This document shows positions 5,932 through 56,650 of a DNA stretch of 64,000 bases, piece after piece (positions within the stretch are counted from its first letter, which is position 1; each line of letters begins with the position of its first letter). Below the pieces are notes generated by a model that did no database searches, had not been told where the DNA came from, and saw only the letters and a list, made by a program, of their open reading frames with translations. The position numbers and the translations under genes are program-made. The stretch covers positions 44,255-108,254 of the forward strand of contig NZ_KB893721.1 of assembly GCF_000374165.1 (NCBI RefSeq), given 5' to 3'. Source of the stretch: Parafrankia elaeagni (lineage in GTDB: Bacteria; Actinomycetota; Actinomycetes; Frankiales; Frankiaceae).

Positions 5932-5950
5932 AAAAATCTCTAGATGTATG
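5932..5950. promoter_or_regulatory. Operator site 1 (FCD regulon), upstream of FCD regulator 1
   Basis: AAATCT-CT-AGATGT is an imperfect inverted repeat with 2-bp spacing in an otherwise GC-rich gap. It lies about 100 bp before the start of the first FCD regulator, suggesting autoregulation. It belongs to the family of sites listed through the window. Confidence 0.6.
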
Positions 5951-6045
5951 AAGTGCGAGACCGTGCGATCACACGTGGACACGGAGGGCCAATCCTCGCG
6001 GCCCGGTAGGCTGGGCGGACCGCGGACACTCAGAGAAGGTCGATC

Positions 6046-6825
6046 ATGGTGGCCCAGCCGAGAAAAGCACAGAATCGCGACCGGGCCGCACTGCGCGAAA
6101 AGCCCCAGCGCATTGCTGACGAGCTTCGTCAGCTCATCGTCCAGGGCGAGCTTTCGGAGGGCGAGTCCCTCGGCCACGAGCCGGACCTGGTCGAGCGTTT
6201 CGGGGTTTCCCGCCCGTCCCTGCGCGAAGCCCTGCGCATACTCGAGACCGAGGGTCTGATCTCGGTCAGGCGCGGTGTTCTCGGCGGAATCGTCGTCCAT
6301 CAGCCGGACCAGCGGATGACGGCCCGCACCGCGGCGCTCGTGCTCCAGGCCCGCAACGTGCCGCTCGCGGACGTCCACGCCGCCCGCAGCCTGCTCGAAC
6401 CTGTCGCCGTGCGCATCATCGCCTCGGCGCGGGATCACAGCTCCGCGGCCGCCGAGCTCCGGCGGCTCAGCGCCGAGCAACTCGAGGTGATCGACGACCC
6501 CGAGGCGTTCGGAAACGCCAACTCGCGCTTTCACGCCCGCCTCGTCGAACTGGCCGGGAATCAGACCCTCGGCATTGTCGCCGAAATGCTCAACGAGATC
6601 GTCGCCCGAGCCGTCGCGGCGGTCAGCCAGCCCGAGGGCGGGAAGGACACCACGGAAACGCGGCTGCGAGGGCTCCGTTCCCAGGCCCGGCTGGCGGCGC
6701 TTGTCGAGGCGGGCGACGCAGCCGGTGCCGAGGAGCACTGGAAGGAGCACATGACGATCGTGGGAAAGGTGCTCCTCACCCAGGGCGCCCGTACGGTCAT
6801 CGACCTGATGCAGCACCACTACTGA
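6046..6825 (+). CDS. GntR-family transcriptional regulator, FCD (FadR) subfamily, copy 1
   Basis: 259 residues. A winged helix lies at ~20-90 (IADELRQLIVQGELSEG; EPDLVERFGVSRPSLREALR is the helix-turn-helix), then the FCD all-helical effector domain at ~105-240 with Asp and His metal/ligand positions, including RFHARLVELAGN. It is very similar along its whole length to the regulator at 45099-45875, so the two are paralogues. FCD repressors usually sense carboxylic acids or acyl-CoA intermediates. An operator-like site lies upstream. It stands alone, convergent with the next crotonase gene. I infer that it controls the dispersed AT-rich operators; only the domain family is directly visible. 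Confidence 0.9.
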   Translation: MVAQPRKAQNRDRAALREKPQRIADELRQLIVQGELSEGESLGHEPDLVERFGVSRPSLREALRILETEGLISVRRGVLGGIVVHQPDQRMTARTAALVLQARNVPLADVHAARSLLEPVAVRIIASARDHSSAAAELRRLSAEQLEVIDDPEAFGNANSRFHARLVELAGNQTLGIVAEMLNEIVARAVAAVSQPEGGKDTTETRLRGLRSQARLAALVEAGDAAGAEEHWKEHMTIVGKVLLTQGARTVIDLMQHHY

Positions 6826-6860
6826 GGCCACCGCGAGTGCGGCCACCGGGAGCAGCCGGC

Positions 6861-6896
6861 GGGGCAGTTGACGGGGCAGTTGACGGGGCAGTTGAC
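6861..6896. repeat. 12-bp tandem repeat (x3), intergenic
   Basis: Three perfect copies of GGGGCAGTTGAC lie in the short gap between the convergent FCD regulator and crotonase genes. The repeat itself has no hairpin, but the gap contains GC-rich dyads that could stop transcription. Confidence 0.85.
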
Positions 6897-6910
6897 GGAG
6901 CCGCCGAGGG

Positions 6911-7729
6911 TCAGCGTCCCTCGAAGAGGGGCGGGCGGCGCTCGACGTAGGCCGCCAGCGCCTCCCGCATGTCCCGGGTGTGGACGTTCACCGTCTGCGC
7001 CAGCGCCTCGACCTCGAGCGCCTGGGCGAGGGACGACGTCCCGGCGGCGGCCAGCGCGCGCTTGGTCATGGACAGCGCCACCGGCGGCCCGGCGGCGATG
7101 CTGTCGGCGATCTCGCGCACCGCGGCGTCGAGGCGCGCCGCGGGCACGACCGCGTTCACGAAGCCGATCTCTGCCGCCTCGGTCCCGCTGAGCATCCTCG
7201 CGGTGTAGGCGAGCTCCTTCGCTCTGTGCACACCGATCCGCTGGCGCAGCAGCCAGGAGGTGCCGAAGTCGAGGCTGAGGCCCCGCCTGGCGAAGATCAG
7301 CGAGAACCGGGCCGTCCGGGCGCACCAGGTGAGGTCGGCGGCCAGCGCCAGGCCCAGGCCGGCACCGACGCACAGGCCGTCGACCTTGGCCACGACCGGC
7401 ACCGGACAGTCGTGGACCGCCAGCACCACGTCAGCCAGGACCCGCATGTTGTCCAGGTTGTGCGGCGGCGCCCCGCTCCCGTTCGACGGGCGCTCGCCGC
7501 GGGCGCCACCGAGGTCCGCTCCGGCGCAGAAGTCACCGCCGGCGCCGGTGAGGATGACGGCGCGGGCACCCGAGAAGGCGACGTCCCGGAAGGTACGTCC
7601 GAGCGCCACCCACATGTCGCCCGTACAGGCGTTCTTCGACTCCGGCCGGTCGATCGTGACGGTCACGACGAATCCGTCCCGGTCAGCCCGGATGTTCGGG
7701 TGGTACGACGGGGGAGACTCTTGCGTCAT
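6911..7729 (-). CDS. Enoyl-CoA hydratase/isomerase-family protein (crotonase 1)
   Basis: A 272-residue crotonase. The oxyanion-hole segments FCAGADLGG (~residue 80) and GLCVGAGLGL (~125) are clear, followed by FARRGLSLDFGTSW. The two glutamates of classical hydratases (GGGxE and PExxxG) are absent; Asp lies in the SLDFG position, as in a large actinobacterial subgroup whose chemistry is often unknown. The start is placed at ATG 7729 because a strong promoter (TTGACG, 17 bp, TAGATA) puts transcription initiation almost exactly on that codon; ATG 7735 is also in frame. It is divergent from the acyl-CoA synthetase at 7820 and shares operator 2 with it. Confidence 0.88.
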   Translation of the reverse strand: MTQESPPSYHPNIRADRDGFVVTVTIDRPESKNACTGDMWVALGRTFRDVAFSGARAVILTGAGGDFCAGADLGGARGERPSNGSGAPPHNLDNMRVLADVVLAVHDCPVPVVAKVDGLCVGAGLGLALAADLTWCARTARFSLIFARRGLSLDFGTSWLLRQRIGVHRAKELAYTARMLSGTEAAEIGFVNAVVPAARLDAAVREIADSIAAGPPVALSMTKRALAAAGTSSLAQALEVEALAQTVNVHTRDMREALAAYVERRPPLFEGR

Positions 7730-7733
7730 GGAC

Positions 7734-7750
7734 ATATATCTAGAGATATT
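7734..7750. promoter_or_regulatory. Operator site 2 overlapping a -10 box (divergent crotonase 1 / ligase 1)
   Basis: ATATCT-AG-AGATAT is a perfect 6+2+6 palindrome. On the minus strand TAGATA inside it is the -10 of a promoter whose -35 TTGACG lies exactly 17 bp upstream; the predicted start point is ATG 7729. A bound repressor would cover the -10 box. The same site lies 70 bp before the divergent ligase gene. Confidence 0.75.
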
Positions 7751-7819
7751 GGACGGACACGTCAACCGGACAACCTGCGAGCGCGAGCCCGACCTGCGCC
7801 CGGGGTGAGGGAGAACCGC

Positions 7820-9580
7820 GTGACAGCACAGGAGTGGTCGTTACCCGCCGTGCTCGACGTCGTCACCGACGTGGCCCCCGACCGTGACATGCTGGTGTCG
7901 GCCACCACGCGCCGAAGCTACGCGCAGGTGCGGGACCGCACCCGGCATCTCGCCGCCCACTTCCGGCAGCACGGGCTCGGCGTGCGACGCGAACGCCGCG
8001 AGCTGCGGCGCTGGGAGTGCGGCCAGAGCACCGTGGCGCTCGTGATGTCGAACTGCCCCGAGTACCTCGAGGCGATGATCGGGGCCTTCCGCGCCCGGGC
8101 GGTGCCGTTCAACGTCAACCACCACTACGCCCCGCGGGAGATCGGCGCGCTGCTGGGCCAGGTCGGCGCCGACGCCGTGGTGTACCACCGGCGGCTGGGC
8201 CCGAAGATCGCTCAGGCGGCCCGGTTCGACACCCGGCTCGACACCCGGCTCGGCACCCGGTTCGACACCCGGCTCGACACCCGGCTCGGCACCCGGTTCG
8301 ACACCCGGCTCGACACCCGGCTCGACACCCAGCCTGGCGGGACCCTCGACGGGCTGCTGCTGATCGACGTCGACGACGGCTCCGGCGTCGCCCCCCTGCC
8401 GGGCAGCACCCCGTTCCCTTCGGCGGTGGCCGGCGCCGAGGGAGTCCACGACCTCCCGGTACCGTCACCCGACGACCTCTACCTCGTCTGCACCGGCGGC
8501 ACGACCGGGACCCCGAAGGGCGTGCTGTGGCGTCAGGGGGACGTCTACGTCTCCGCCACGGGCGGGGTCGACGGAGCCACCCGCGACGTCATCGCGGAGA
8601 TCGCCGAGGCCGGGGCGGGCGTCTGGTTCGCGGCTCCCCCGCTGATGCACGGCGCCTCGCAGTGGACCGCGTTCGCCGGGCTCGTCAACGGCGGCACGGT
8701 CGTCCTGCACGACGACTCCCGGCCGTTCGACGCGCGGGAGATTCTGCGGACCGTCGAGCGCGAGCGGGTGACGATGATGTCGATCGTGGGCGACGCCTAC
8801 GCCCGGCCGCTGATGGACGAGATCAGCGCCGGCTCCTACGACCTGGCCTCGCTGGTGCGGCTCGGCACCGGCGGTGCGACGACCAGCGCCGGGCTCAAGC
8901 AGGCGCTGCTCGACCTGCTGCCCCAGCTCACCGTCGTCGACGGGTACGGGGCGTCCGAAACGGGCGGGATGGCGTTCGGGACGTCGACGTCGGGCAGGCC
9001 GGCGCATCGGTTCAGGCTCTCCGCGGGTGCGGCGGTGCTGTCGGCGGACCGGTCCCGCTTCCTCGACCCTTCGGACGACGAGGTCGGCTGGACGGCACGG
9101 GTCGGCCGGATCCCACTCGGCTACCTCGGCGACCGGGTGCGCACGGAGCAGACCTTCCCGCTCGTCGACGGCCGGCGGACCTCGGTTCCCGGGGACCGTG
9201 CCCACTACAACAGCGACGGCGACATCATCGTGCTCGGACGGGACGCGATGGTCGTCAACACCGGCGGCGAGAAGGTGTTCGTCGAGGAGGTGGAGGAGGT
9301 CCTTCGGCAGCACCCCGACATCCTCGACGCGCTCGTCGTCGGGCGGCCGAACGACCGCTACGGCGAGGAGGTGGTCGCGCTCGTCCAGCTCCGGGCAGGT
9401 ACGCAGTTGTCCCCCGCCTCGGTCCGTGAGCACGTCGCCGGCCAGGTCGCACGGTTCAAGGCGCCCCGGGCCGTGCTGCTGTGCCCGCGGATCGGCCGCC
9501 ACGTCACCGGCAAGGCCGACTACATCTGGGCCCGGCGGGCGGCTCTCGAGGCGGTGTCCGCCACCGTGCCGACAACCTGA
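7820..9580 (+). CDS. Acyl-CoA synthetase (ANL superfamily, ligase 1)
   Basis: A 586-residue ATP-dependent acid:CoA ligase. The P-loop-like A3 motif is CTGGTTGTPKGVLW (~residue 235); the A5 motif is GYGASETGG (~375); the C-terminal hinge and lysine region has GRDAMVVNTGGEKVFVEEVE (~480) and GKADYIWAR at the end. GTG 7820 is preceded by GAGGGAGAA. An unusual insertion at residues ~135-170 is made of RFDT/RLDT/RLGT repeats encoded by a 12-bp tandem repeat. It is divergent from crotonase 1 through a shared operator. It activates a carboxylic acid as CoA thioester at pathway entry; the substrate is not deducible. Confidence 0.88.
   Translation: MTAQEWSLPAVLDVVTDVAPDRDMLVSATTRRSYAQVRDRTRHLAAHFRQHGLGVRRERRELRRWECGQSTVALVMSNCPEYLEAMIGAFRARAVPFNVNHHYAPREIGALLGQVGADAVVYHRRLGPKIAQAARFDTRLDTRLGTRFDTRLDTRLGTRFDTRLDTRLDTQPGGTLDGLLLIDVDDGSGVAPLPGSTPFPSAVAGAEGVHDLPVPSPDDLYLVCTGGTTGTPKGVLWRQGDVYVSATGGVDGATRDVIAEIAEAGAGVWFAAPPLMHGASQWTAFAGLVNGGTVVLHDDSRPFDAREILRTVERERVTMMSIVGDAYARPLMDEISAGSYDLASLVRLGTGGATTSAGLKQALLDLLPQLTVVDGYGASETGGMAFGTSTSGRPAHRFRLSAGAAVLSADRSRFLDPSDDEVGWTARVGRIPLGYLGDRVRTEQTFPLVDGRRTSVPGDRAHYNSDGDIIVLGRDAMVVNTGGEKVFVEEVEEVLRQHPDILDALVVGRPNDRYGEEVVALVQLRAGTQLSPASVREHVAGQVARFKAPRAVLLCPRIGRHVTGKADYIWARRAALEAVSATVPTT
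8222..8329. repeat. 12-bp tandem repeat with 36-bp higher order, in ligase 1
   Basis: Nine 12-bp units alternate CGGTTCGACACC, CGGCTCGACACC and CGGCTCGGCACC, arranged as two full 36-bp triplets plus a third variant triplet. They stay in frame and encode a charged Arg-x-Asp/Gly-Thr array in the N-terminal domain of the acyl-CoA synthetase. Confidence 0.92.
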
Positions 9581-9587
9581 CGGGTCC

Positions 9588-9613
9588 GCGGGGCGGCCGG
9601 GCGGCCGCCCCGC
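9588..9613. terminator. Bidirectional hairpin between convergent genes
   Basis: GCGGGGCGGCC, loop GGGC, then the exact reverse complement: a perfect 11-bp stem in the 41-bp gap between the 3' ends of ligase 1 and ACAD 1. There is no T-run, as is common in actinobacteria. Confidence 0.65.
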
Positions 9614-9621
9614 AGGTCGGG

Positions 9622-11055
9622 CTACTCCCGGGCCGACGACCAGCCACGGGCGTCCCGCAGCACCTCCCGGAACGGCTTGCCGCTGTCGAAGGACGGTTCG
9701 CGGGGGAGGCCGAGCACCCGCTCGCCGATGCTGTTGCGCTGCATCTCGTTGGTTCCACCGGCGATCGACATGAAGCGGCTGTTGAGGAAGCCGACCGCGG
9801 CTTTCGGCCCAGGGCTGTCGCCGGGCCGCTCGTCCCGGTTCACGGCGTCCCCGTGCGCTCCGTCCGCGCCCATGGTTTCCCAGTTCACGGCGTCCGCGCC
9901 GCCGATGCGCATGGCGATGTCGGCGCGGATCGGGTCGTGGACGCCGCTGACCAGCTTGGCGTAGGAGGCGAGGTGCAGCGCCTGGGCGGGATCCGTCCGC
10001 ATCCGCGCGCCGAGCCGCCCGAGCAACGCCCGGCGTGCCACGTCGTCGACGTGGGCGCGCACGATCAGGTCGCGGGTGAGCGGGTCGGCGAGCCGGCCGG
10101 CGGCCCGGGCGAGCTCGACGAGGTCGGGCGCGACACCCGTCGAGGCCCGGGTGGTGCGGGTGGTGCGGGTGCCGTGGCTGAGCCCTCCCCCGCGTTCGAA
10201 CATCAGCATGGTCTGGGCGACGGTCCAGCCGTCGTTCACCTGGCCGATGACGTCACCGTCGCCGAGCACGACGTCGTCGAAGAACTCCTGGCAGAACTCG
10301 GCGTCGCCGGTGATCTGTCTGATCCGCTCCACGGTCACGCCGGGAGCGGTGACGGGGACGGCGAACCACGTCAGCCCACGGTGCTTGGGCACATCCCAGT
10401 CGGTGCGGGCGAGGCACATGCCCCAGTCGGCGTAGTAGGCCCCGCTGCTCCAGATCTTCGACCCGTTGAGGACCCACCCGTCGCCGGAACGGACCGCCCG
10501 GGTGCGCACACCGGCGAGGTCCGACCCGGCCTCCGGCTCGGAGAAGAACTGCACGAACAGCTCCTCGCCGGCGAGGATCCTCGGGATGTGCCGGCGCAGG
10601 AAGTCCGCCGACGCGTGCGCGAGCATCGTCATGGCGCACACGCCGAACGTGGTGCCGCCGGCTATGCCCAGGTCGGGCAGCCGGTAGCCGCGCGCCTCCT
10701 GCCCGAAGGCGCGTTCGTACTCCGGTCCGAGGCCCTGGCCGCCGTACTCGCGCGGCCAGGTGATCCCCGCGTACCCGGCCTCGTACAACCGGCGCTGCAG
10801 CGCACGCCCGGCCGCGATCGCGGCCGGATCGGTGTCGCCCCTGCGGAGGCCTGAAACCTGGCCCCGCTCGAGGTTCGCCTCGATCCAGGCCCGGGCCCGG
10901 GCCCGGTACTCGTCGAGAGCCGGCGCCGGGACCTCGCGGCCCGGCGCCGCGCTGTCGCCATGTTCCGGCGCCCTGTTGTCGCCGTCGCCGTCGCCGTCGC
11001 CGTCGTCGCGCTCCGCTGCCGCGTCACTGTCGTGCTCCGCCGCGATGTCCCGCAT
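9622..11055 (-). CDS. Acyl-CoA dehydrogenase, large-chain type (ACAD 1)
   Basis: A 477-residue FAD-dependent acyl-CoA dehydrogenase. It shows PREYGGQGL in the N-terminal helical domain, QFFSEPEAGSDLAG and WVLNGSKIWSSGA in the beta domain, and AGGTNEMQRNSIGERVLGLPRE at the C terminus (FAD/adenine-binding loop). The N terminus (first ~45 residues) is an acidic low-complexity extension with an (Asp-Gly) repeat. ATG 11055 overlaps the upstream TGA (TGATG), so it is coupled to ACAD 2. Adjacent ACAD pairs of this kind form heterotetramers in steroid side-chain oxidation; I infer the same here. It is the last gene of the operon 14690-9622. Confidence 0.9.
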   Translation of the reverse strand: MRDIAAEHDSDAAAERDDGDGDGDGDNRAPEHGDSAAPGREVPAPALDEYRARARAWIEANLERGQVSGLRRGDTDPAAIAAGRALQRRLYEAGYAGITWPREYGGQGLGPEYERAFGQEARGYRLPDLGIAGGTTFGVCAMTMLAHASADFLRRHIPRILAGEELFVQFFSEPEAGSDLAGVRTRAVRSGDGWVLNGSKIWSSGAYYADWGMCLARTDWDVPKHRGLTWFAVPVTAPGVTVERIRQITGDAEFCQEFFDDVVLGDGDVIGQVNDGWTVAQTMLMFERGGGLSHGTRTTRTTRASTGVAPDLVELARAAGRLADPLTRDLIVRAHVDDVARRALLGRLGARMRTDPAQALHLASYAKLVSGVHDPIRADIAMRIGGADAVNWETMGADGAHGDAVNRDERPGDSPGPKAAVGFLNSRFMSIAGGTNEMQRNSIGERVLGLPREPSFDSGKPFREVLRDARGWSSARE

Positions 11056-12245
11056 CAGCCGACTCCGATCCGCTCGCCCAGCCGGGCGCGGTGCCACTGC
11101 GCCGAGCCGAACGCCACCGCGTCCGCCGCGAGGCGCCTCATGAACAGGTGGTGGTCGTGCTCCCAGGTGTAACCGACCCCGCCGAAGACCTGGAAACAGC
11201 CATGGGCCAGCTCGACTCCGTGCTCGGCGACGAAGGCCTTCGCGGCATGCGCGAGATCCACCCCGTCACGGGCGCCGGAACCGGGCGGCCCTGAGCCAGA
11301 CGAGCCGGAACCTAGCGACTCCGCGGCGGCGGACACCACGGCCTTCGCCATCTCGAGGGAGAGGCTCAGGTCTGCGAGCAGGTGCTTGACCGCCTGGAAC
11401 GAGCCGATCGGCCGTCCGAAGGCGATACGTGTCCCGGCGTGTTCGACGGCTGCCTCGAGGTCATGGTGCATCGCCCCGACCGACTCCGCGGCGGTGAGGA
11501 CCGCGGCGATCCCGACCTGCCACTCGAACCGCGCCGCGGTCGCGTCGCCCGGCACTCCGAGCACCGCGTCCGCGCCCACCCGGACATCGTGAAACCGCGC
11601 CGCGCCCGGCCGACGGGTGATGTCCAGGCTCGCCATCCGCCGTGTCTGGACTCCGGGCGTATCCGCGGCGACCAGGAACTGCGTCAGCCCACGCGGCCCG
11701 TGCGCGGTGACGGCCAGCAGGTCGCAGTCGGCCACGTCCGGTACGTGCCGGACGTCCCCGTCGAGGCGGAAGCCGCCGCCATCGTCCTCGGCCGCGACGA
11801 TCTCGCCGGCTCCCGGCGTCAGCCCGGCGACGTCGCCCACCACCCACGTCGCCCGGGCCCGGCCGGCCACCAGCCCGGCGAGGGCCTCGCGGCGCCTCGG
11901 GCCCTCGGCCGCCAGCAGGTGGGCGACGACGTTCGCCGCGGCGAACGGGCCGGGCTGCAGGACGGCGCCCCGCTCGGCGGCGACCGCCGCCGCGTCCAGC
12001 AGGCCGTTGCCCGACACGGTGCCGCCGCCGTGCTCCTCGCCAACCAGCATCCCGAACCAGCCGAGCGAGCCCGCGGCCTCGTGGTAGCGCGCGTCTGGTC
12101 CACCCGCGCCCACAGCGAGTCCGCCTTCGCCCGCGGCGAGCTCGCGGACCGACGGCAGCGGCATCGTCCGCTCGATGAACCGGGAGCTGGAGTCGAGGAG
12201 CAGCTCCTGCTCGGGCGTCGCGGACGCCAGCAGCCCGACGCTCAT
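11055..12245 (-). CDS. Acyl-CoA dehydrogenase, partner subunit type (ACAD 2)
   Basis: A 396-residue acyl-CoA dehydrogenase-like protein. It has GMLVGEEHGGGTVSGNGLLD in the N-terminal domain, a poorly conserved middle domain and a C-terminal helical domain with FGRPIGSFQAVKHLLADL and FGGVGYTWEHDHHLFMRR. Its sequence type is that of the non-identical partner subunit in two-gene ACADs. ATG 12245 overlaps the TGA of the upstream crotonase by ATGA, and its own stop overlaps the ATG of ACAD 1. A Gly/Ser/Pro-rich insertion lies near residue 320. Confidence 0.88.
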   Translation of the reverse strand: MSVGLLASATPEQELLLDSSSRFIERTMPLPSVRELAAGEGGLAVGAGGPDARYHEAAGSLGWFGMLVGEEHGGGTVSGNGLLDAAAVAAERGAVLQPGPFAAANVVAHLLAAEGPRRREALAGLVAGRARATWVVGDVAGLTPGAGEIVAAEDDGGGFRLDGDVRHVPDVADCDLLAVTAHGPRGLTQFLVAADTPGVQTRRMASLDITRRPGAARFHDVRVGADAVLGVPGDATAARFEWQVGIAAVLTAAESVGAMHHDLEAAVEHAGTRIAFGRPIGSFQAVKHLLADLSLSLEMAKAVVSAAAESLGSGSSGSGPPGSGARDGVDLAHAAKAFVAEHGVELAHGCFQVFGGVGYTWEHDHHLFMRRLAADAVAFGSAQWHRARLGERIGVG

Positions 12246-13144
12246 GCGCCGGTGAACCCTGGCTCGCGGCGCTCGGCGAAGGCCCGGAAGCCCTCCCGCG
12301 CATCCATCGTGGTGTAGGCGATGTGCTGGGCCCGCGCCTCGTCCTCCACCGCCCGCTCGAACGTGGCCGAGTCGCTCGCGTCCAGCAGCCGTTTGATCAG
12401 GCTGAGCGCGGTCGTCGGCCCGGCGGCCAGCCGACGGCCCCACGCGGTGGCGACCTTCGTCAGCTCGCCGGCCGGCACGACCTCGTTGACCAGGCCCCAC
12501 GCCAGCGCGTCCCGGGCGCCCACCCAGTCGCCGAACAGGGCCATCTGCTTCGCCCGGCGCAGCCCGATCTGGCGGGGCAGGCTCCAGGACGTCCCGCCGT
12601 CCAGGGAAAGGCCTCGTCTGGCGAACACCTCGCAGAACCGGGCCCGGTCGCTGGCGACGACAAGGTCGCAGGCGAGCACCAGGCCGAGCGAGACGCCGAC
12701 GGCGACGCCGTCCACCGCCGCGATGGTCGGCTTCGGCAGCCGGTGCAGCCGGTTGACGATGTCGCCCGCCGTGCGCATCTCGTGCAGGATCGCCTGCCGG
12801 GGTCCGGAAAGCCCGCGGGCCTCGTCCCCCCCGCCCGTGGCTGCGCCCGCGTCCGTGCCCGTGCCCGTGGCCGTGGCCGTGGCCGTGGCCGTGGCCGTGG
12901 CCGTGGCCGTGGCCGTGGCCGCGCGCGCGCCGCCGCGCGCGCCGCCGGTCAGGTCGGCGCCCGAGGAGAAGTTCCCACCGGCGCCGGTCAGCAGGAGCGC
13001 CCGGTCGGCCGGGTTCCGGGCGACCTCGGTCAGCACCCGGTCGAGGTCGGCCCAGCTGGCCCCGTCCAGCGCGTTCTTCTTCTCCGGGCGGTTGAAGACA
13101 ACCGTGACCAGGCCGTCACTGCGTTCGACGAGCGTCGAATCCAT
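12242..13144 (-). CDS. Enoyl-CoA hydratase/isomerase-family protein (crotonase 2)
   Basis: A 300-residue crotonase with FSSGADLTGG, GVAVGVSLGLVLACD and FARRGLSLDGGTSW. It is the same subgroup as crotonase 1, without the hydratase Glu pair. The loop after GADL carries a run of about ten Ala-Thr dipeptides encoded by a 6-bp repeat, a position where crotonases tolerate insertions. The start is ATG 13144 (MDSTLVERSDG), preceded by GGAGGA; a longer reading from 13193 would translate through operator 3 and is less likely. It is second in an operon after ligase 2. Confidence 0.87.
   Translation of the reverse strand: MDSTLVERSDGLVTVVFNRPEKKNALDGASWADLDRVLTEVARNPADRALLLTGAGGNFSSGADLTGGARGGARAATATATATATATATATATGTGTDAGAATGGGDEARGLSGPRQAILHEMRTAGDIVNRLHRLPKPTIAAVDGVAVGVSLGLVLACDLVVASDRARFCEVFARRGLSLDGGTSWSLPRQIGLRRAKQMALFGDWVGARDALAWGLVNEVVPAGELTKVATAWGRRLAAGPTTALSLIKRLLDASDSATFERAVEDEARAQHIAYTTMDAREGFRAFAERREPGFTGA
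12855..12921. repeat. 6-bp tandem repeat (about 10 copies) in crotonase 2
   Basis: A run of CGTGGC units (GCC-ACG on the coding strand) encodes an Ala-Thr dipeptide array in a surface loop. Unit length is a multiple of three, so copy-number change would not break the frame. Confidence 0.9.
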
Positions 13145-13167
13145 CGGGTCCTCCGTCCAACCGGAAT

Positions 13168-13182
13168 CAATATAGATATTTT
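13168..13182. promoter_or_regulatory. Operator site 3, between ligase 2 and crotonase 2
   Basis: CAATATAGATATTTT, one AGATAT half-site and a weak partner, immediately after the stop codon of ligase 2 and about 25 bp before crotonase 2. It may control an internal promoter of the operon. Confidence 0.5.
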
Positions 13183-45092: not shown

Positions 45093-45098
45093 CGGCCC

Positions 45099-49429: not shown

Positions 49430-49488
49430 GCGAGCGCCGGCACCGGCTCAGTCCCCCGCCGGCCGGTTGAGCGAGAGGTAGTAGTCCC

Positions 49489-50292
49489 ATGGGATTCGAG
49501 ACGATTCGCTACCAGGTCGAGGACCGGGTGGCCACGATCACCTTCGACCGGCCCGAGGCGCTCAACGCGCTGAGCCCGGCGATGGTCCGGGAGCTGCGGC
49601 AGGCGTACGCCGACGCCGAGGCCGACGACGGCGTCTGGATCCTGCTCGTGACCGGCAACGGCCGGGCGTTCTGCGCTGGTGCCGATGTCACCGAGATCCC
49701 CGACGACGGGCGGGTCGTCTACGACGAGCCGTATCTGTCGACGTTCCCGCAGTGGGAGGCTCCGCAGGAGGGCACGCCCCCGTTCCGGACCATGACCAAG
49801 CCGATCCTCACCGCGGTGAACGGCCTGTGCTGCGGTGCCGGGCTCGACCTCGTCACCACCGGCGACATCGTCATCGCCTCCGACCGGGCCGAGTTCTTCG
49901 ACCCGCACGTCAGCATCGGTCTGGTCTCCGGCCGGGAGGTGGTGCGCCTCGCCCGCGCCCTGCCGATCAACATCGCCATGCGGATGGCGCTGATGGGCCG
50001 GCACGAGCGGATGAGCGCACAGCGCGCCTACGACCTGGGCCTGGTCTCCGAGGTCGTCGCGCACGACCGGCTGCTCGAGCGGGCCCGGGAGATCGCGCAC
50101 ACCGTCAACCGCAACGCACCGCTGGCCGTGCGCGGCACCCGCCTCGCCATCCGCCGGGGCCGCGACCTTCCACTGTACGAGGCCGAGGTGATGGCCGAGG
50201 CGTTCCGGGAGCGGGTGGTCCGCACCGAGGATGCCAAGGAGGGCCCGCGTGCCTTCGTCGAGAAACGCCAGCCGGACTGGAAGTGCGAATGA
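49489..50292 (+). CDS. Enoyl-CoA hydratase/isomerase-family protein (crotonase 6)
   Basis: A 267-residue crotonase: FCAGADVTEIPD, GLCCGAGLDLVTTGD and FFDPHVSIGLVSGREV; the two hydratase Glu are replaced (Asp and others). It ends with RAFVEKRQPDWK. Its TGA overlaps the ATG of ligase 6. Confidence 0.9.
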   Translation: MGFETIRYQVEDRVATITFDRPEALNALSPAMVRELRQAYADAEADDGVWILLVTGNGRAFCAGADVTEIPDDGRVVYDEPYLSTFPQWEAPQEGTPPFRTMTKPILTAVNGLCCGAGLDLVTTGDIVIASDRAEFFDPHVSIGLVSGREVVRLARALPINIAMRMALMGRHERMSAQRAYDLGLVSEVVAHDRLLERAREIAHTVNRNAPLAVRGTRLAIRRGRDLPLYEAEVMAEAFRERVVRTEDAKEGPRAFVEKRQPDWKCE

Positions 50293-51818
50293 CCCACCAC
50301 GGGACGGCCGAGCTGCCCGCGCTCAGCGAACGCATCGGGAAGGTGCTGGCCCTCGACCCGTCGGCGCCCGCCGTCGAGTTCGAGCGCCACTGGCACACCT
50401 GGGGCGAGCTGGCCGCGGCGGCCGACGCGGTCGCGCCGCTGGTACGGCCGGGCGAACGCGTCGCCCTGCTGCTGCGCAACCGGCCGCCGCAGCTCGGCCT
50501 GCTCCTCGGCCTGCTCCGGGCCGGTGCCTGCGTGGTCGCCGTCAACCCCGGGCGCGGAGCCGAGCGGGTCCGCGCCGACCTCGGCTCCCTCGCCGTCGCG
50601 ACCGTCGCCGGCGGACGGGCCGATCTGGCCGCCCTGGCGCCGCGGGCGCGCCGGCTCGGCAGCGACGAGCTCGGAGTCGTCACCGGCAGCGGGTCGCCTC
50701 CGGGCACCGGCGGCGGGTCGGCTCCGGGCACCGCCGACCCGCGCCCCGGGGTCGCCGTCGAGATGCTCACCAGCGGGACGACCGGACCGCCCAAGCGGGT
50801 CCCGCTGGCCTACGAGACCTTCCGGCGGGTGCTCGCCGGGGCCCGGCACTACGAACGCAGCCCCGACTCCGGCCTTCGGCTGCGCCGGGGCGTGGTCATC
50901 GTGAACGCGCCGCTGGTGCACCTCGGCGGGCTGTTCCGGATCCTGCAGTGCGTCAACGACGGCCGCGCGTTCTGCCTGCTCGAACGCTTCCGCGTCGAGG
51001 AGTGGGCGGACGCCGTGCGCCGCCACCGGCCCTCGACCGTCAGCCTGGTCCCGGCCGCGCTGCGGATGGTCCTCGACTCCGACCTCGGTCCCACCGACCT
51101 GTCCGGTGTGCGGTCGGTGATCTCGGGTACCGCCCCGCTGGCGCCCGAGGACGCCGACGCCTTCCAGGCGAGGTTCGGCGTGCCGGTGCTGACCTCGTAC
51201 GCGGCGACCGAGTTCGGCGGCGGCGTCGCCGGCTGGAACCTCGCCGACCACGAGCGGTACTGGACGGCGAAGCACGGCAGCGTCGGGCGGGCCCACGCCG
51301 GCTGCGCGCTGCGCGTGGTCGACCCGGACACCGGCGCACCTCGGGAGCCGGACGAACCGGGCCTGCTGGAGGTCCGGGCGGCGCAGCTCGGCGACGACAG
51401 CGGCTGGACCCGCACCACCGACCTCGCCCGCCTCGACACCGACGGCTTTCTGTGGATTCTCGGCCGGGCCGACCAGGCGATCATCCGCGGGGGCTTCAAG
51501 ATCCTGCCGGACGACGTGCGCACCGCCCTGGAACGCGACCCGCGCGTGCGCGGCGCCGCCGTGGTCGGCCACCCCGACGCCCGCCTCGGGGCCGTTCCGG
51601 TGGCCGCGGTCGAGCCGCGCCCCGGGGTCACGGTGAGCGCCGAGGATCTCCTGGCGGCGGCAGCCGGCGTCCTGGCTCGCTACGAGCTGCCGACTCGGCT
51701 GCGGGTCGTCGAGGCGCTGCCGCGGACGCCCTCGGGCAAGGTCGATCTGGCCGCCGTGCGCGAACTGTTCACCCAGTCACCCAGCAGCACTGAACTGAGC
51801 AGCCCGGAGCACCCCTGA
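50289..51818 (+). CDS. Acyl-CoA synthetase (ANL superfamily, ligase 6)
   Basis: A 509-residue ligase. It has EMLTSGTTGPPKRVPL (A3), TSYAATEFGGGVAG (A5), RTTDLARLDTDGFLWILGR (A7/A8), RGGFKILPDDVR and TPSGKVDLAAVRE (catalytic Lys). ATG 50289 overlaps crotonase 6 by ATGA. A short Gly/Ser/Pro repeat lies at ~residue 140. After its stop, GGAGGAG at 51825-51831 has no start codon because an IS200/IS605 element begins immediately after. Confidence 0.9.
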   Translation: MTHHGTAELPALSERIGKVLALDPSAPAVEFERHWHTWGELAAAADAVAPLVRPGERVALLLRNRPPQLGLLLGLLRAGACVVAVNPGRGAERVRADLGSLAVATVAGGRADLAALAPRARRLGSDELGVVTGSGSPPGTGGGSAPGTADPRPGVAVEMLTSGTTGPPKRVPLAYETFRRVLAGARHYERSPDSGLRLRRGVVIVNAPLVHLGGLFRILQCVNDGRAFCLLERFRVEEWADAVRRHRPSTVSLVPAALRMVLDSDLGPTDLSGVRSVISGTAPLAPEDADAFQARFGVPVLTSYAATEFGGGVAGWNLADHERYWTAKHGSVGRAHAGCALRVVDPDTGAPREPDEPGLLEVRAAQLGDDSGWTRTTDLARLDTDGFLWILGRADQAIIRGGFKILPDDVRTALERDPRVRGAAVVGHPDARLGAVPVAAVEPRPGVTVSAEDLLAAAAGVLARYELPTRLRVVEALPRTPSGKVDLAAVRELFTQSPSSTELSSPEHP

Positions 51819-51870
51819 ACAGCCGGAGGAGCACGGTGTGACTACTCCGACGGCTGAAGCCGCCGGCTTC

Positions 51871-52704
51871 TCAGGCCGCTTGGGTGGCCTGACGGGCCAG
51901 TCCGGCCCGGAGGATGTTGACGGCCGCGTTCACGTCAGCGTGTGCTGTGTACTCACACGCCACACAGAGGAACACCCCCCATCTCGCGCCCAGAATCGAC
52001 GTGTTCAGTCCCGTCTCGGCGGCCTGCCCGTTGGGCAGGAACGCCCCCGGCCGGTCGGGGTCGGGTCTCGGGGCGGCCCTGCGGGTCATGTTCCCGACCC
52101 GCAGGGCTTCCACGGCGATCAGGTCGTGCTCGCGGACCAGCCCGAGGGCGGTCTTGTGGGCGAGGTCGAGCCGCTGCCGGCGCACCGTGCCGTGCAGCGC
52201 GGCGACCCGCGCCACCGCCTTCCGTCTCCGCGCCGACCCCCGCTTCTTCCGCGCCAGCCTCCGCTGCGCGCGGGCAAGCCGGTCGGCCACCGCGGCGAGG
52301 TAGCGGGGGTTGCCGATGTGCCGGCCGTCGGAGGTAGTCGCCAGCGATGCCACCTCCAGGTCCACCCCGACCACCGCGCCGGTGACCGGCAGCGGCGCGG
52401 CGGGCACGTCGTCACAGGAGAGGACCACATACCAGCGGCAGCCCTCCCGCTTGACGCTGATCGTCTTGACGGTGCCGAGTACCGGCCGGTGCTGGTTGAC
52501 CTTGACATGGCCGACGCCGCGGATCTCTTTGAGCTGAGCGGACTGGCCGCCATAGCGAACCGTTGTCCGGGACGGGTGCCGGTAGGCGTCACGGCGTTCC
52601 TGAAGCGCCGCGTTGTACAGCGCCCGGTGGCTGTTGAGCATCGCCGTGAACGCGGCTGCCTGCCTGACAGTCGGGCGGAGCTGGAACTTGAACGTCCGTC
52701 TCAC
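51871..52704 (-). pseudogene. tnpB: TnpB (IS605 OrfB) RNA-guided nuclease relic with two internal deletions
   Basis: 277 residues instead of ~400. The N-terminal TFKFQLRPTVRQ and HRALYNAAL are present, then the text jumps from SAQLKEIR to GVGHVKVNQHRP (about 60 residues lost). The RuvC residues remain: GVDLEV (Asp), IAVEAL (Glu) and HADVNAA (Asp). A second jump from ILGARWGVFL to CVACEYTAHADV removes ~50 residues including the first Cys pair of the zinc ribbon. Both losses keep the frame. GTG 52704 overlaps the tnpA stop. Guide-RNA-dependent cleavage is unlikely, but the nuclease triad has not been lost. Confidence 0.82.
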
Positions 52705-53150
52705 GGCCGCTCCCTGCGCCATGGACGCTCGTACCGGGTGTCGATGTACCGGCGCACCATGTCGGCGGAGACCACGCCGACAGTGACGACGAAGTACGAC
52801 CACGACCACAGGGTCGACAGCCGGGACCGCAGGTGCGGGAACTCGGCGCGTAGGACCCGGCTGGTGCATCCCTTGAACTGGTTGGCGACGTATGACGGGG
52901 AGTGCTTCGGATGAGCCCTGACGAACAGACGCACGTGATCCGGCATGACCTCCAGCGCGACGACGCCCCAGCCGTGTTCGGTGCATTTCTGTCGGATCAG
53001 CTCGTCGCGCCGGTCGCGGACCGGGCCGGTGAGCACGGGACGGCGGTACTTCGGGCACCACACGACGCGATATCCGAGGTCGTGGACGCCGCCCGCGCCC
53101 ACCGTCACCTGCCGCACCATGATCCGATTATGCCGGTGCCGCGCATCCAT
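52701..53150 (-). CDS. tnpA: TnpA, HUH Y1 transposase (IS200-like) with altered HUH motif
   Basis: 149 residues with LGYRVVWCPKYRRPVLTG and a full-length C-terminal helix containing the candidate nucleophilic Tyr (MVRRYIDTRY). The metal-binding motif that should read PDHVHLxV reads PDHVRLFV: the second His codon is CGT at 52929-52931. That His is a metal ligand in the HUH family, so catalysis is probably lost. ATG 53150 is chosen by family start pattern; ATG 53120 is possible. Confidence 0.82.
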   Translation of the reverse strand: MDARHRHNRIMVRQVTVGAGGVHDLGYRVVWCPKYRRPVLTGPVRDRRDELIRQKCTEHGWGVVALEVMPDHVRLFVRAHPKHSPSYVANQFKGCTSRVLRAEFPHLRSRLSTLWSWSYFVVTVGVVSADMVRRYIDTRYERPWRRERP

Positions 53151-53215
53151 CAGGGTTGCGGTCTGTACCCGGTTCCCCTCACGCCTGAAGGCGTCAGTCC
53201 CCTCGGGAGTCTCTG

Positions 53216-54406
53216 ATGGACCTGACCTACAGCGAGGAGGACGAAACGTTCCGCGCCGAGCTTCGCTGCTGGCTCGAGGTGGCGGTGCCCGACCACGGCC
53301 CGCCCCCACCCCCCGGTGACTGGCCGGCCCGACGCGCCTACGACACCGCCTGGCAGCGCAGGCTGTACGACGCCGGGTACGCCGGCCTGCACTGGCCCAG
53401 CCGGTTCGGCGGCCGTGGCCTGCCGGTCACCCAGCAACTCGTCTACCTGGAGGAGTACGCCCGCGCCGGCGCCCCGTACATCAGCGTCAACTTCGTCGGG
53501 ATGATGCACGCCGGCCCGACGCTGATCGCCGAGGGTACCGACGAGCAGCGGGCCTACCACCTGCCGCGCATCCTGCGCGGCGAACACGTCTGGTGCCAGG
53601 GTTTCTCCGAGCCGCAGGCCGGCTCCGACCTCGCCTCGCTGCGCACCAGCGCGGTCCGTGACGGCGACGACTACGTCGTCAACGGCCAGAAGATCTGGAG
53701 CACCCGGGCGCACGTGGCCGACTACGGCGAGCTGCTGGTCCGCACCGACCCCGACGCCCGCAGGCACCGCGGCATCAGCTGGCTCATCCTCGACATGCGC
53801 TCCCCCGGCGTCGAGGTCCGCCCGATGCGCACCATCGACGGCGAGAGCCACTTCTGCGAGGTGTTCCTCACCGACGTCCGGGTGCCCGTCACCAGTCTCG
53901 TCGGCGCGGAGAACGACGGGTGGCGGGTGACGAACGTGACCCTGCGCTTCGAGCGCGGCACCGCCTTCGCCCAGCACATCATCACCCTGCGCTCCCAGCT
54001 CCGGGACCTGGTCAGGGTGGCCAGGCTGGTACCGGGGCCGGGCGGCGGCACCGCCTGGGACGACCCGGCGCTGCGCTCGCACGTCGGCCGGCTGGAGGCG
54101 AACGCCGACGGTCTGTGGCGGATGGCCCAGCGGGGGATCACCGAGACGGAGGCCACCGGACTGCCCGCGCCCACCGGCTCGGCCGTCAAGCTGCGGTTCA
54201 GCGAGCTCAGCCAGGAGCTGAGCGAGCTCGCGGTCCGCGTACTCGGCCGCGCCGCGACGGGTGGCGTGCGGGCCGGCGGGGTGGACGGTGTCGAGACCGC
54301 CCGGGCCTATCTCTGGTCACTGCAGTACAGCATCGCGGCCGGCACCTCGCAGATCCAGCGCAATCTCATCGCCGAGCGGATCCTCGGGATGCCCCGCCCG
54401 GCCTGA
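53216..54406 (+). CDS. Acyl-CoA dehydrogenase, large-chain type (ACAD 8)
   Basis: A 396-residue ACAD. It has MDLTYSEEDETFRAELR, HWPSRFGGRGLPV, GFSEPQAGSDLAS, YVVNGQKIWSTRAH and AAGTSQIQRNLIAERILG. The start codon now lies only ~10-40 bp from the IS end, and its nearest ribosome-site-like sequence (CGGGAG) belongs to the element. It was probably the fifth gene of the operon starting at 47149 and the partner of ACAD 7. Confidence 0.9.
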   Translation: MDLTYSEEDETFRAELRCWLEVAVPDHGPPPPPGDWPARRAYDTAWQRRLYDAGYAGLHWPSRFGGRGLPVTQQLVYLEEYARAGAPYISVNFVGMMHAGPTLIAEGTDEQRAYHLPRILRGEHVWCQGFSEPQAGSDLASLRTSAVRDGDDYVVNGQKIWSTRAHVADYGELLVRTDPDARRHRGISWLILDMRSPGVEVRPMRTIDGESHFCEVFLTDVRVPVTSLVGAENDGWRVTNVTLRFERGTAFAQHIITLRSQLRDLVRVARLVPGPGGGTAWDDPALRSHVGRLEANADGLWRMAQRGITETEATGLPAPTGSAVKLRFSELSQELSELAVRVLGRAATGGVRAGGVDGVETARAYLWSLQYSIAAGTSQIQRNLIAERILGMPRPA

Positions 54407-54452
54407 CCTCCCACGCGCTGTCGAGGACGACCCACCACCGGAGGCCTCACCC

Positions 54453-54599
54453 GTGGTCGAGGAGTGGCACATGGACGTGGCCCTGCGCCGGCCGGGCACA
54501 CCGGGCGAGGTCGGCGACCTGTTCGCCTTCCTCCTGTCACCCCGCACGGGCTATCTCACCGGCGCCGTCATCAACATCGACGGCGGTACCCAGTTCTGA
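54453..54599 (+). pseudogene. SDR C-terminal fragment
   Basis: About 48 codons encoding the last part of a short-chain dehydrogenase: LRRPGTPGEVGDLFAFLLSP followed by a TGYLTGAVINIDGGTQF-like end, the classic SDR terminus. The Rossmann start, NAG and YxxxK motifs are missing, and the region upstream belongs to ACAD 8 and a short spacer. GTG 54453 preceded by GGAGG could start translation of the remnant, but no function is expected. Confidence 0.75.
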
Positions 54600-54662
54600 T
54601 CCGCCGCCCCGAATCCCTCTGCCGCCGGCCCCTGTCCGCCGACCCCTGTCGGTACCGCGGCC

Positions 54663-55463
54663 CTACCGCCCGCCGAAGTCCGGAGGGCGCCGTTCCCTGA
54701 AGGCCACGAGCCCCTCCCTGAAGTCAGCGGTGCGCGACGTCAGCTCGAGCGCGAACGCCTCGTCCTGCATCGCCTCCGCCAGCCCCAGCTCCAGCCCGCG
54801 GTTGACCAGGCGCTTGGTGAGCCCGACCGCGACCGTGGCGGCCTGCCCGAGCGTCTCGACCAGCTCCACGGCCGCGCTGTCCAGCTCGGCGTCAGGCACA
54901 GCCCGGTAGATGAGCCCCCACTCGGCGGCCTGGGCCCCTGACAGCCGCCGGCCGAGCAGCATCAGCTCCTTGGCCCGGGCGATGCCGACCAGCCGGGGCA
55001 GCAGCCAGGTCGCGCCACTGTCCGGGCTGAAGCCCCGGGTCAGGAACGGCTCCCAGAACCGGCTGCTCTCGGCGGCGACAGTGAAGTCGGCCGCGAGCGC
55101 GAGCTGGAACCCGAGGCCGGCGGCGTGGCCGCGGACGACGGCGACGACGGGCAGCTGCACCTCGGTGATGAGCTGGATGAGCCGGTGCGCCTGCAGCGCG
55201 GTGCGCCGCTGCACGCTGCCGGGGCGCGGCCGGGCGCCGCCGGCGGTGTTCGAGGCCACCCAGTCGGCGCCGGAGCAGAAGTCCGGGCCGCGGCTCTCGA
55301 TCACGACCACCCGGAGCGCGTCGTCGGTGGCCGCATCCTCGAGGGCACCGACGATCCGGCGCACCGCCGCGGCGTCGAGGGCGTTGCGGCGTTCCGGCCG
55401 GTCGAGGCCGATGCGCAGCACGCCGCCGTCCCGGTCGAGGCCGACCCCTGCCTCCGTCGTCAC
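54663..55463 (-). CDS. Enoyl-CoA hydratase/isomerase-family protein (crotonase 7)
   Basis: A 266-residue crotonase: FCSGADWVASNT, GHAAGLGFQLALAADF and FLTRGFSPDSGATW, the same Glu-less subgroup as crotonases 1 and 2. The GTG start at 55463 has GAGGGGG upstream. It is divergent from crotonase 8 across operator 15. Confidence 0.88.
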   Translation of the reverse strand: MTTEAGVGLDRDGGVLRIGLDRPERRNALDAAAVRRIVGALEDAATDDALRVVVIESRGPDFCSGADWVASNTAGGARPRPGSVQRRTALQAHRLIQLITEVQLPVVAVVRGHAAGLGFQLALAADFTVAAESSRFWEPFLTRGFSPDSGATWLLPRLVGIARAKELMLLGRRLSGAQAAEWGLIYRAVPDAELDSAAVELVETLGQAATVAVGLTKRLVNRGLELGLAEAMQDEAFALELTSRTADFREGLVAFRERRPPDFGGR

Positions 55464-55587
55464 CGACGACCCCCTCTTCTCGCCTGCGCCCGCGATGGTC
55501 TGGCCCCTGCAGCGGTCAGACCCGGGCGCCCCCGAAGGGGACTCGCCGAGGGTGACATGCATCGGTACGATGCTAACTCCCAGCCTG

Positions 55588-55608
55588 GAAATATCTAGAG
55601 ATATAGGA
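55588..55608. promoter_or_regulatory. Operator site 15, between crotonases 7 and 8
   Basis: ATATCT-AG-AGATAT, a perfect 6+2+6 palindrome identical in core to site 2. Confidence 0.75.
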
Positions 55609-55656
55609 TGGCGTCGCTGGATGGCGGGACTGTTCGATCAGCGAGAGGGAGAGCCC

Positions 55657-56538
55657 ATGAGCGACGGTCGTGTGCTGCTGGAACGCGACGAGGGGACAGG
55701 GATCGCCCGCCTCACGCTCGACAACCCCAGCCGCCGGAACGCGTACGACCCCGCGATGCGGGAACAGCTCGGCACCTACCTCGACGAGCTCGCGGTCGAT
55801 GACGCGATCAAGGTCGTCCACCTGCGCGGCACCAGCGGCGTCTTCAGCACCGGCGCCGACATGGCCAACGCCTACGCCTGGTACGGCGACGCCGCGAAGG
55901 ACTCCACCCGCCGACGTCCCAGCCAACGCCGGCGGCTGTCCGTCGACCGCAGATCGTTCAGCTTCTACCACAACTTTCTCGGCTACCCGAAAGCCACGAT
56001 CGCCGAGGTACAGGGCTTCGCGCTCGGCGGCGGCTTCGAACTCGCACTCATGGCCGACATCGCGATCGTCGCCGGTGACACCCGGATCGGGATGCCCGCG
56101 ACACGGTTCCTGGGCCCGGCCCTCGGCTCACTGCACATGTTCTTCTACCGGCTCGGCCCCGTCCTGGCACGCCGCCTGCTCCTCACCGGCGACATGATCC
56201 CCGCCAGTGACCTCGCCCACCTCTCGATCTTCACCGAGATCCTCGACAACGGCGACGACGTACACACCCGCGCCGACTGGTGGGCCCGCAAGCTCGCCCG
56301 CATGCCCGCCGACGGCATCGTCATCGCCAAGGAGGCCTTCCGCCTCGTCGAGCAGCTACAGGCCTACCAGGGCGAGGAGGTCGCCAGCTACCTCTTCCAC
56401 GCCTACGGCACCAATCTCCAGTTCCAGGACGACGAGTTCAACTTCGTCAGGACCCGCGCCGAACACGGCACGAAACGTGCCTTCCAGCTCCGCGACGAAC
56501 ACTTCGACCTCCCCAGCCCGGGAACGACGACCGGCTGA
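55657..56538 (+). CDS. Enoyl-CoA hydratase/isomerase-family protein (crotonase 8)
   Basis: A 293-residue crotonase: FSTGADMANAYAWYG, GFALGGGFELALMAD (first catalytic Glu kept) and IGMPATRFLGPALG (second Glu absent). ATG 55657 follows GAGAGGGAG at good spacing; in-frame ATG 55621 is an alternative. The C-terminal extension (RTRAEHGTKRAFQLRDEHF) is longer than in the others. Confidence 0.9.
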   Translation: MSDGRVLLERDEGTGIARLTLDNPSRRNAYDPAMREQLGTYLDELAVDDAIKVVHLRGTSGVFSTGADMANAYAWYGDAAKDSTRRRPSQRRRLSVDRRSFSFYHNFLGYPKATIAEVQGFALGGGFELALMADIAIVAGDTRIGMPATRFLGPALGSLHMFFYRLGPVLARRLLLTGDMIPASDLAHLSIFTEILDNGDDVHTRADWWARKLARMPADGIVIAKEAFRLVEQLQAYQGEEVASYLFHAYGTNLQFQDDEFNFVRTRAEHGTKRAFQLRDEHFDLPSPGTTTG

Positions 56539-56577
56539 CGGGCAACTGGCACGGCCGCCCCCGGCGGCACCGCGGGC

Positions 56578-56600
56578 CCGGCACGGCGGGCCCGTGCCGG
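56578..56600 (+). terminator. Hairpin downstream of crotonase 8
   Basis: CCGGCACGG, loop CGGGC, CCGTGCCGG: a perfect 9-bp stem 40 bp after the stop, followed by GC-rich sequence without a T-run. Confidence 0.55.
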
Positions 56601-56633
56601 ACGACGGCGCGCCGGACGACAGCGTCGCGGGCA

Positions 56634-56650
56634 CCTAAACATTTAGAGGG
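56634..56650. promoter_or_regulatory. Operator-like site 16 (orphan)
   Basis: AAACATTTAGAG differs by one base from the AAACATCTAGAG of site 12. It lies between the 3' end of crotonase 8 and the 3' end of the lipase gene, with no gene start nearby. Confidence 0.4.

Follow-up and report, generated by a model that had tools for sequence, protein, structure and literature searches.

Sixteen-base palindromes before the units of a catabolic island in Parafrankia elaeagni are probable operators of FCD-GntR regulators

We analysed a 64,000-nucleotide stretch of the Parafrankia elaeagni genome (the window; positions 44255-108254 of contig C52, in an assembly of 7.59 Mb and 135 contigs). A 16-bp palindrome, WWAYATCTAGATRTWW, recurs there in front of the transcription units of a catabolic island at 5.9-56.6 kb, which by gene calls and Pfam/NCBIfam matches holds 36 catabolic genes and two FCD-GntR regulator genes (6046-6825 and 45099-45875). 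Judging from sequence comparison, these palindromes are very probably the operators of a single regulon read by the two regulators. The window is GC-rich throughout (about 64-76% in 2-kb steps); of the 49 genes called in it, 48 were searched with Pfam and 20 with NCBIfam. The original prediction, made from the DNA letters, had described dyads of ATCT/AGAT half-sites at nearly every catabolic unit of the island. It came without site coordinates, and we took its sites 1-16 to be the 16 dyads at 5932-56652.

The motif and its distribution

Allowing up to three mismatches, WWAYATCTAGATRTWW has 17 matches in the window against the 0.03 expected from 100 dinucleotide-preserving shuffles. They are the 16 dyads plus one at 58595, and loose ATCT/AGAT dyads are in excess as well. 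All 17 lie outside the called genes, except for 2 bases of the site at 7734, although only 10% of the sequence at 5932-56650 is non-coding. Genes grouped by strand and spacing form 19 units, two of them the regulators, and each of the 19 has a site upstream (a weak one in two cases), which bears out the claim of dyads at nearly every catabolic unit. As also predicted, both regulator genes carry one, at 5934 before regulator 1 and at 45074 before regulator 2. Fifteen sites stand before the 19 units: four are common to two divergent units, and four further divergent regions have a pair, with one site close to either gene (22236/22413, 29750/29853, 40667/40969 and 46933/47082). At 33.6-37.3 kb sites seemed to be missing, but we take this part to be the far end of the unit that starts at 40607.

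How strongly the motif is concentrated in the window depends on the stringency of the search. With up to two mismatches, 12 of the 15 places in the whole genome fall in the window, which makes up 0.84% of it; the other three are on contigs C53, C14 and C70, and a reversed control pattern gives 3 places genome-wide. With up to three mismatches the window holds 17 of 36 places and the control gives 25, so that the weak matches elsewhere are mostly noise. The statement that the dyads occur almost nowhere else thus holds for the strong sites, which are concentrated in the island and not equally frequent at unrelated genes, and fails for those with three mismatches. Searched as a 12-mer with up to one mismatch, the motif has 9 of its 11 places in the window, but with two mismatches allowed the genome has 107 places for the motif and 131 for the control, so that such a search carries no information. 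Because the motif was noticed in this same window, the conservation and cross-genome tests described below outweigh the tiny binomial values.

A half-site matrix was built from 45 distinct ATCTAGAT sites at 39 loci outside the window, part of them picked through a 12-mer search and several from close strains. The matrix is symmetrical by construction, and its conservation reaches AGATRTWW on each side, though the scan for sites had demanded only the 8-mer. Applied to the window, it recovers the same sites: 13 are strong, with at least 22 bits (5934, 7734, 13166, 14795, 22413, 29750, 40667, 40969, 43698, 45074, 46933, 47082 and 55589), and four are weak, at 22236 (19.0 bits), 29853 (17.2), 58595 (16.5) and 56637 (15.2).

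The dyads had been described as spaced by 0 or 2 bp. The pattern ATCTN{0,2}AGAT occurs at 39 places in the genome, 6 with spacing 0 (4 in the window), 5 with spacing 1 (none in the window) and 28 with spacing 2 (5 in the window). The ungapped WWAYATCTAGATRTWW likewise matches all five of the 2-spaced sites in the window, at one or two mismatches each, and even-spaced matrix matches alias one another owing to AT repeats. We therefore regard the two-spacing pattern as mostly one motif and rejected two strict spacing classes. What stands of the claim is the absence of spacing 1 in the window; given this, and a counterpart of the regulator-2 site in the related locus L027 that keeps ATCT/AGAT with a changed centre, we retain the 2-spaced form as a minority. 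Conceivably each paralogue specialises, one in the ungapped form and the other in the form with a 2-bp gap.

The regulators and their co-occurrence with the motif

Regulator 1 (259 aa, 6046..6825, + strand; Pfam GntR 1.4e-16, FCD 2.3e-13) and regulator 2 (258 aa, 45099..45875, + strand; GntR 6.5e-16, FCD 3.2e-14) are 72% identical. Both have an N-terminal GntR winged helix (PF00392, 60.4 and 58.2 bits, cut-off 27) and a C-terminal FCD domain (PF07729, 51.1 and 53.9 bits, cut-off 24.3). Among named organisms, regulator 1 has its closest orthologues in Parafrankia, that of P. colletiae reaching 95%. In a tree of 26 rows, both regulators, the acidimicrobial ones and a more distant protein of genome G427 form one clade (support 97/96), and two other FCD proteins of the P. 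elaeagni genome fall outside it. No copy of the motif is present in seven stretches, partly overlapping, that surround other FCD paralogues in the same genome.

The sites are well conserved in relatives. Orthologous regions were compared for 11 of the 17 sites, in 14 pairs; 223 of 234 site positions are identical against 859 of 1120 in the 40+40 bp flanks, a comparison that favours the sites because the partners were picked where a site had already been found; the poorest pair, the 5932 site in L016, is counted in the total. Among 18 loci with a relative of the regulator in named genomes, 15 hold the 8-mer, the 2-spaced dyad or the half-site TAGATRTW, though some of the half-site matches look coding. 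The other three (L019, L023 and L024) hold none of these forms, and with the matrix at 17 bits L024 has three sites.

Within the family, 15 of 36 genomes have the regulator (E up to 1e-60), and the exact 12-bp core AYATCTAGATRT is present in 14 of those 15 and in none of the other 21 (Fisher 4e-9), while the reversed core occurs in 4 of the 36. The 16-mer with up to two mismatches has 286 places in the regulator-bearing genomes (median 19) against 33 for the control, and 27 places in the regulator-free genomes (median 0) against 41. Among the 13 sampled genomes of its genus, G008 alone has the regulator or the exact core, and it has both; in G018 the regulator is accompanied by near-consensus sites only. 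This co-occurrence supports the earlier proposal that the FCD proteins are the readers, as does the gene order in G417 described below.

We also searched a sample of 396 genomes from the phylum, scoring at most 6 or 4 candidate proteins per genome. The regulator was found in four (P. elaeagni itself, G417, G427 and G060), of which P. elaeagni and G417 hold the exact core. The 394-aa amidohydrolase (E up to 1e-100) was found in 15 genomes, 12 of them without a regulator hit, and the exact core is absent from all 12. We therefore rejected the idea that the motif is tied to the enzymes and not to the regulator, and the assignment to the FCD proteins gains further support. Enrichment was judged from the family test, because searching the whole phylum sample for the core gives background matches: 28 of the 396 genomes have one or more, and in 23 of these there is just one. 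One genome of the sample, G231, has six copies of AYATCTAGATRT and no hit for this regulator; they are perhaps the site of another protein.

Elsewhere, homologues of the enzymes turn up in different arrangements and spread over further contigs, and many are preceded by the motif. In G417, eleven homologues stand on one strand behind one strong site, with the regulator last and a divergent enoyl-CoA hydratase/isomerase (ECH) gene across the site, and L030, from an Acidimicrobiia metagenome-assembled genome, has a similar arrangement. In Frankiaceae these genes are scattered over many units. The motif accompanies homologous genes across genomes, with exceptions at L019, L023 and L065. On the strength of these gene orders we read the pattern as the break-up of an operon in Frankiaceae, with the operator being copied, although the reverse direction is also possible.

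Proposed mechanism and competing explanations

In the mechanism that we propose, dimers of the regulators would bind WWAYATCTAGATRTWW; in 12 of the 19 units a -10-like hexamer is found at the palindrome or a short way downstream of it. Bound regulators would most likely repress about 36 genes whose products would degrade a cyclic compound, possibly a terpenoid-like one, in a CoA-dependent way, and release could follow when a pathway intermediate (our guess is an acyl-CoA) binds the FCD domain. In G417 and L030 many genes would be controlled in one run, with the regulator, from one strong operator; in Frankiaceae the genes would be split into many units, most with their own operator or one in common with a divergent neighbour. 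Several observations weigh against parts of this reading, and they are given below with the explanations that they favour.

The first concerns repression. A TAnnnT hexamer lies 2-40 nt from the dyad centre in 12 of 19 units, compared to 5.6 in same-segment shuffles (p 0.0015), and in those units the first one starts 1-21 nt past the centre, where a bound dimer should block the polymerase. The other seven units have no TAnnnT within 40 nt, and for regulator 1 the nearest is 67 nt past the centre. This would suit regulators that activate, or a pair of which one represses and the other activates. The FCD pair GntR1/GntR2 of Corynebacterium glutamicum represses most of its targets and is taken to activate ptsG, where the site is centred at -60 (PMC2230225). 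Given the 12 units with a hexamer close behind the dyad, we consider activation unlikely.

The second concerns the identity of the reader. As the regulator, the enzymes and the sites are inherited together, the palindromes could be operators of one regulon read by another co-inherited DNA-binding protein, with the FCD proteins controlling something else. In the regulator-bearing loci L019 and L023, the 10 kb to each side hold no site of at least 17 bits, which means that autoregulation is not a general rule. In G035 the enzymes are present along with three places of the 16-mer, and there is no regulator hit; the assembly of this genome is in 850 contigs, and either the gene is missed for this reason or the link between regulator and motif is imperfect. 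Neither G427 nor G060, whose relatives of the regulator have 52% and 41% identity, holds the exact core. Additionally, the family genomes are not independent and represent few independent gains, and the motif was noticed in this window, with the core of the family search drawn from the window and its relatives. On the other side, the only other regulator-like genes among the 48 window genes searched with Pfam, a SARP/BTAD gene and a CGNR zinc finger gene, both lie outside the units and are unreported among the matches in the related loci. The FCD gene also belongs to the enzyme run of G417, though a blast search with window proteins is blind to an unrelated regulator. A different reader seems to us improbable, somewhat more so than activation.

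The form of the motif bears on the same question. The usual Arg at position 28 of the helix-turn-helix appears to be Pro, and once Leu, in all 19 aligned relatives, when positions are matched to what we take to be the numbering of E. coli FadR. The support from this is only mild, because that numbering is presumed and because Gly and Ser at other contact positions match the usual FadR-subfamily pattern. Within the window TKGT-N3-ACMA has no match and TKGT-N2-ACMA a single one (8178, inside a gene), neither falling at a site, so canonical FadR-type palindromes are absent from the promoters, a lack that we count in favour of the assignment to the FCD proteins. The FadR (FCD) subfamily has the operator consensus TKGT/ACMA, and an Arg at position 28 is tied to a G of the TKGT box (PMC4494728). 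The P. elaeagni proteins resemble this subfamily in combining a GntR winged helix with an FCD domain, in palindromic operators (here as a sequence pattern) near promoters, and in divergent regions with two sites, each near its own operon (PMC4494728). They differ in that WWAYATCTAGATRTWW lacks GT/AC boxes, which favours another reader, but the subfamily has exceptions with non-GT motifs, NanR and BioR (PMC4494728).

BioR of alphaproteobacteria is a FadR-subfamily repressor with an AT-rich, non-GT palindrome, TTATMKATAA, and the two BioR homologues of Paracoccus bind predicted sites, one before each gene (PMC4494728; PMC4554459). It differs in sequence, in phylum and in its small biotin regulon (PMC4494728; PMC4554459). 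TTATMKATAA has no exact match in the window, and no biotin family is found among the Pfam matches of the 48 window genes searched. GntR1 and GntR2 are FCD paralogues with 78% identity and the same binding site (PMC2230225). Like the pair described here they are two paralogues in an actinobacterium with one code; unlike it they govern gluconate genes, and their sites match TNGTNNNACNA with 1-2 mismatches (PMC2230225). One code for two FCD paralogues thus has precedents in GntR1/GntR2 and the two BioR proteins. By sequence, the nearest solved relative of the regulators is PDB 2di3 (E 9.9e-18), which is LldR of C. glutamicum (PMC4494728). The GntR-family architecture is in common, but LldR is a far relative and a lactate regulator.

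Less probable still, to a marked degree, is that the dyads serve as promoter elements, perhaps for an alternative sigma factor, and not as operators. They lie near start codons and often abut TAnnnT, and AT-rich DNA is common at promoters. However, conservation extends 8 bp to each side of the dyad axis (in a matrix symmetrical by construction), one dyad serves both directions in four divergent regions, and the distance from site to start codon ranges from 6 to 250 bp. The absence of the exact core from the regulator-free family genomes, along with the site geometry of the units, led us to reject a promoter element alone. Chance clustering of AT-rich words, which might be suspected because the motif class was chosen after inspecting the window, is refuted by the shuffle, reversed-control and genome-concentration counts as well as by conservation and recurrence in other genomes, and its probability is negligible.

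A literature search, in which few subscription papers were covered, returned no description of this motif or regulon. The actinobacterial steroid regulons of KstR and KstR2 are similar in having one palindrome at many promoters of genes for CoA-dependent ring degradation, and they differ in being controlled by TetR-family regulators through other motifs. We see about an even chance for a more novel reading, in which an undescribed FCD clade recognises a palindrome that departs from the subfamily consensus and controls the catabolic regulon of an unnamed cyclic compound, the ancestral operon being broken into about 19 units. In that case each Frankiaceae unit would keep or gain an operator, and the operator code rather than the operon would hold the pathway together. 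Further unlinked targets would include a gene with a limonene-epoxide-hydrolase domain (G008), a molybdopterin oxidoreductase (G033) and the Rv3169-family gene of P. elaeagni itself.

The regulator clade and its 16-bp code could then serve as a handle, from sequence alone, on a large catabolic system in Frankia relatives and some acidimicrobial genomes, and its members could be listed by operator wherever they lie in a genome. It would add an unusual operator to the FadR subfamily, which should help models of protein-DNA recognition, and it offers a tractable case of an operon apparently broken up with its control kept. It also points to an undescribed switch for compound breakdown in a Frankia-like soil bacterium.

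Sites, genes and substrate clues

Taking the predicted operators in order (with identical positions in relatives in brackets), the one at 5934..5949 has one mismatch and lies about 106 bp before regulator 1; its 2-spaced reading, 5932-5949, scores higher (L017 14/16, L016 11/16). That at 7734..7749 (one mismatch; 18/18 in L016 and L017) is common to a divergent ECH gene, 6911-7735, and a ligase gene, 7820-9580. Next, 13166..13181 (three mismatches; 15/16 in L017) precedes a unit of an ECH and two acyl-CoA dehydrogenases (ACAD), 13144-9622 (-), and 14795..14810 (two mismatches; 16/16 in L017) is common to a ligase, 14690-13182 (-), and a binding protein/P450/kinase-like unit, 15052-18663 (+). 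The weak operator at 22236..22251 (three mismatches; 15/16 in L018, where the score is higher) stands before an amidohydrolase-ACAD-ACAD unit, 22172-18694 (-), and 22413..22428 (one mismatch; 16/16 in L018, flanks 38/80) before a DapB-like gene at 22490 (+). A unit of alcohol dehydrogenase (ADH), ligase and aldehyde dehydrogenase (ALDH), 29656-25551 (-), is preceded by 29750..29765 (one mismatch), and a pair of ACAD genes, 29989-32432 (+), by the weak operator at 29853..29868 (three mismatches).

Further along, 40667..40682 (one mismatch) precedes the unit 40607-33633 (-), which holds an ECH, a thioesterase-like protein, two ligases (one split over two frames), an amidohydrolase and an F420-type luciferase-like monooxygenase (LLM). 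A short-chain dehydrogenase/reductase (SDR)-ECH unit, 41034-42552 (+), follows 40969..40984 (two mismatches, with a higher score for the 2-spaced reading), and 43698..43713 (two mismatches; 16/16 in L027) lies before a truncated Baeyer-Villiger-type monooxygenase gene, 43669-43145 (-). The site at 45074..45089 (one mismatch), whose L027 counterpart was described above, is common to a thiolase, 44980-43808 (-), and regulator 2 (+). An ECH gene, 46847-45978 (-), has the perfect match at 46933..46948 (16/16 in L027), and the site at 47082..47097 (two mismatches; 16/16 in L027) precedes a unit of amidohydrolase, ACAD, ECH, ligase, an insertion sequence (IS) and ACAD, 47149-54406 (+). Two divergent ECH genes, 55562-54663 (-) and 55657-56538 (+), have 55589..55604 in common (one mismatch; 18/18 in L021 and L094).

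The last dyad of the original prediction, at 56637..56652 (three mismatches), had been placed at a promoter, but the genes on its two sides converge. L021, the locus of P. soli, has a similar element, flanked there by the same ECH gene and a gene for a regulator, so the P. elaeagni copy is probably a relic operator, the remains of a lost regulator promoter. Beyond the island, a weak candidate operator at 58595..58610 (three mismatches) lies 25 bp before an exporter-like major facilitator superfamily (MFS) gene at 58636 (+); in L048 and L051, MFS homologues (54%) have a strong site at a distance of 3-4 kb. On contig C53 a site at 106227-106242 (L043) stands, judging from gene calling, about 120 bp before the Rv3169-family gene, and contig C32 of G017 has an identical 16-mer.

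The 36 genes of the predicted regulon (6911..56538, both strands) include a substrate-binding protein and three apparently broken genes. The largest enzyme classes are eight ACADs, eight ECHs, six acyl-CoA ligases and three amidohydrolase-2 proteins; thiolase, SDR, ADH, ALDH and P450 are present once each. The LLM protein matches TIGR03857 with a score above the cut-off, and the thioesterase-like protein matches PDB 2ov9 (E 4e-15) and thioesterase superfamily members. The remainder comprises a kinase-like protein, the binding protein, the DapB-like gene and the truncated monooxygenase gene. The three broken-looking genes are this monooxygenase (43145-43669, cut short), the DapB-like gene (22490-23083, shortened) and a ligase (35561-37323, in two frames), and relatives have longer homologues of all three.

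Family and structure-sequence searches of these proteins returned no pathway name. Our best guess, a tentative one based on similarity, is that the substrate may be a cyclic, terpenoid-like compound. It draws on the P450, the ADH and ALDH, the ligases, PimC/IpdE2-like dehydrogenases (both matches below cut-off), the genes behind sites elsewhere and a similarity to PtmU3 and DitZ, which belong to terpenoid pathways. The amidohydrolase at 20988-22172 has its best match in an uncharacterised solved hydrolase, 4dzi (E 1.6e-165), with PtmU3 and DitZ far weaker. In relatives, genes behind sites elsewhere encode a limonene-epoxide-hydrolase domain (L064), a full-length PtlE-like monooxygenase (L062), SDRs and a molybdopterin oxidoreductase. 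A site in L065 precedes a lysozyme-like gene that looks unrelated.

Three other features of the window may be mentioned. An IS200/IS605-type transposase pair (51871-53120) lies inside one unit, between the ligase at 50289-51818 and the ACAD at 53216-54406. The site-free part at 433-5843 has lantibiotic-dehydratase-like and SARP/BTAD genes and is perhaps a separate biosynthetic region. Another site-free part, at 23133-25506, carries the CGNR zinc finger gene with haem-oxygenase-like and EamA genes, and with its lower third-position GC it is perhaps an insertion.

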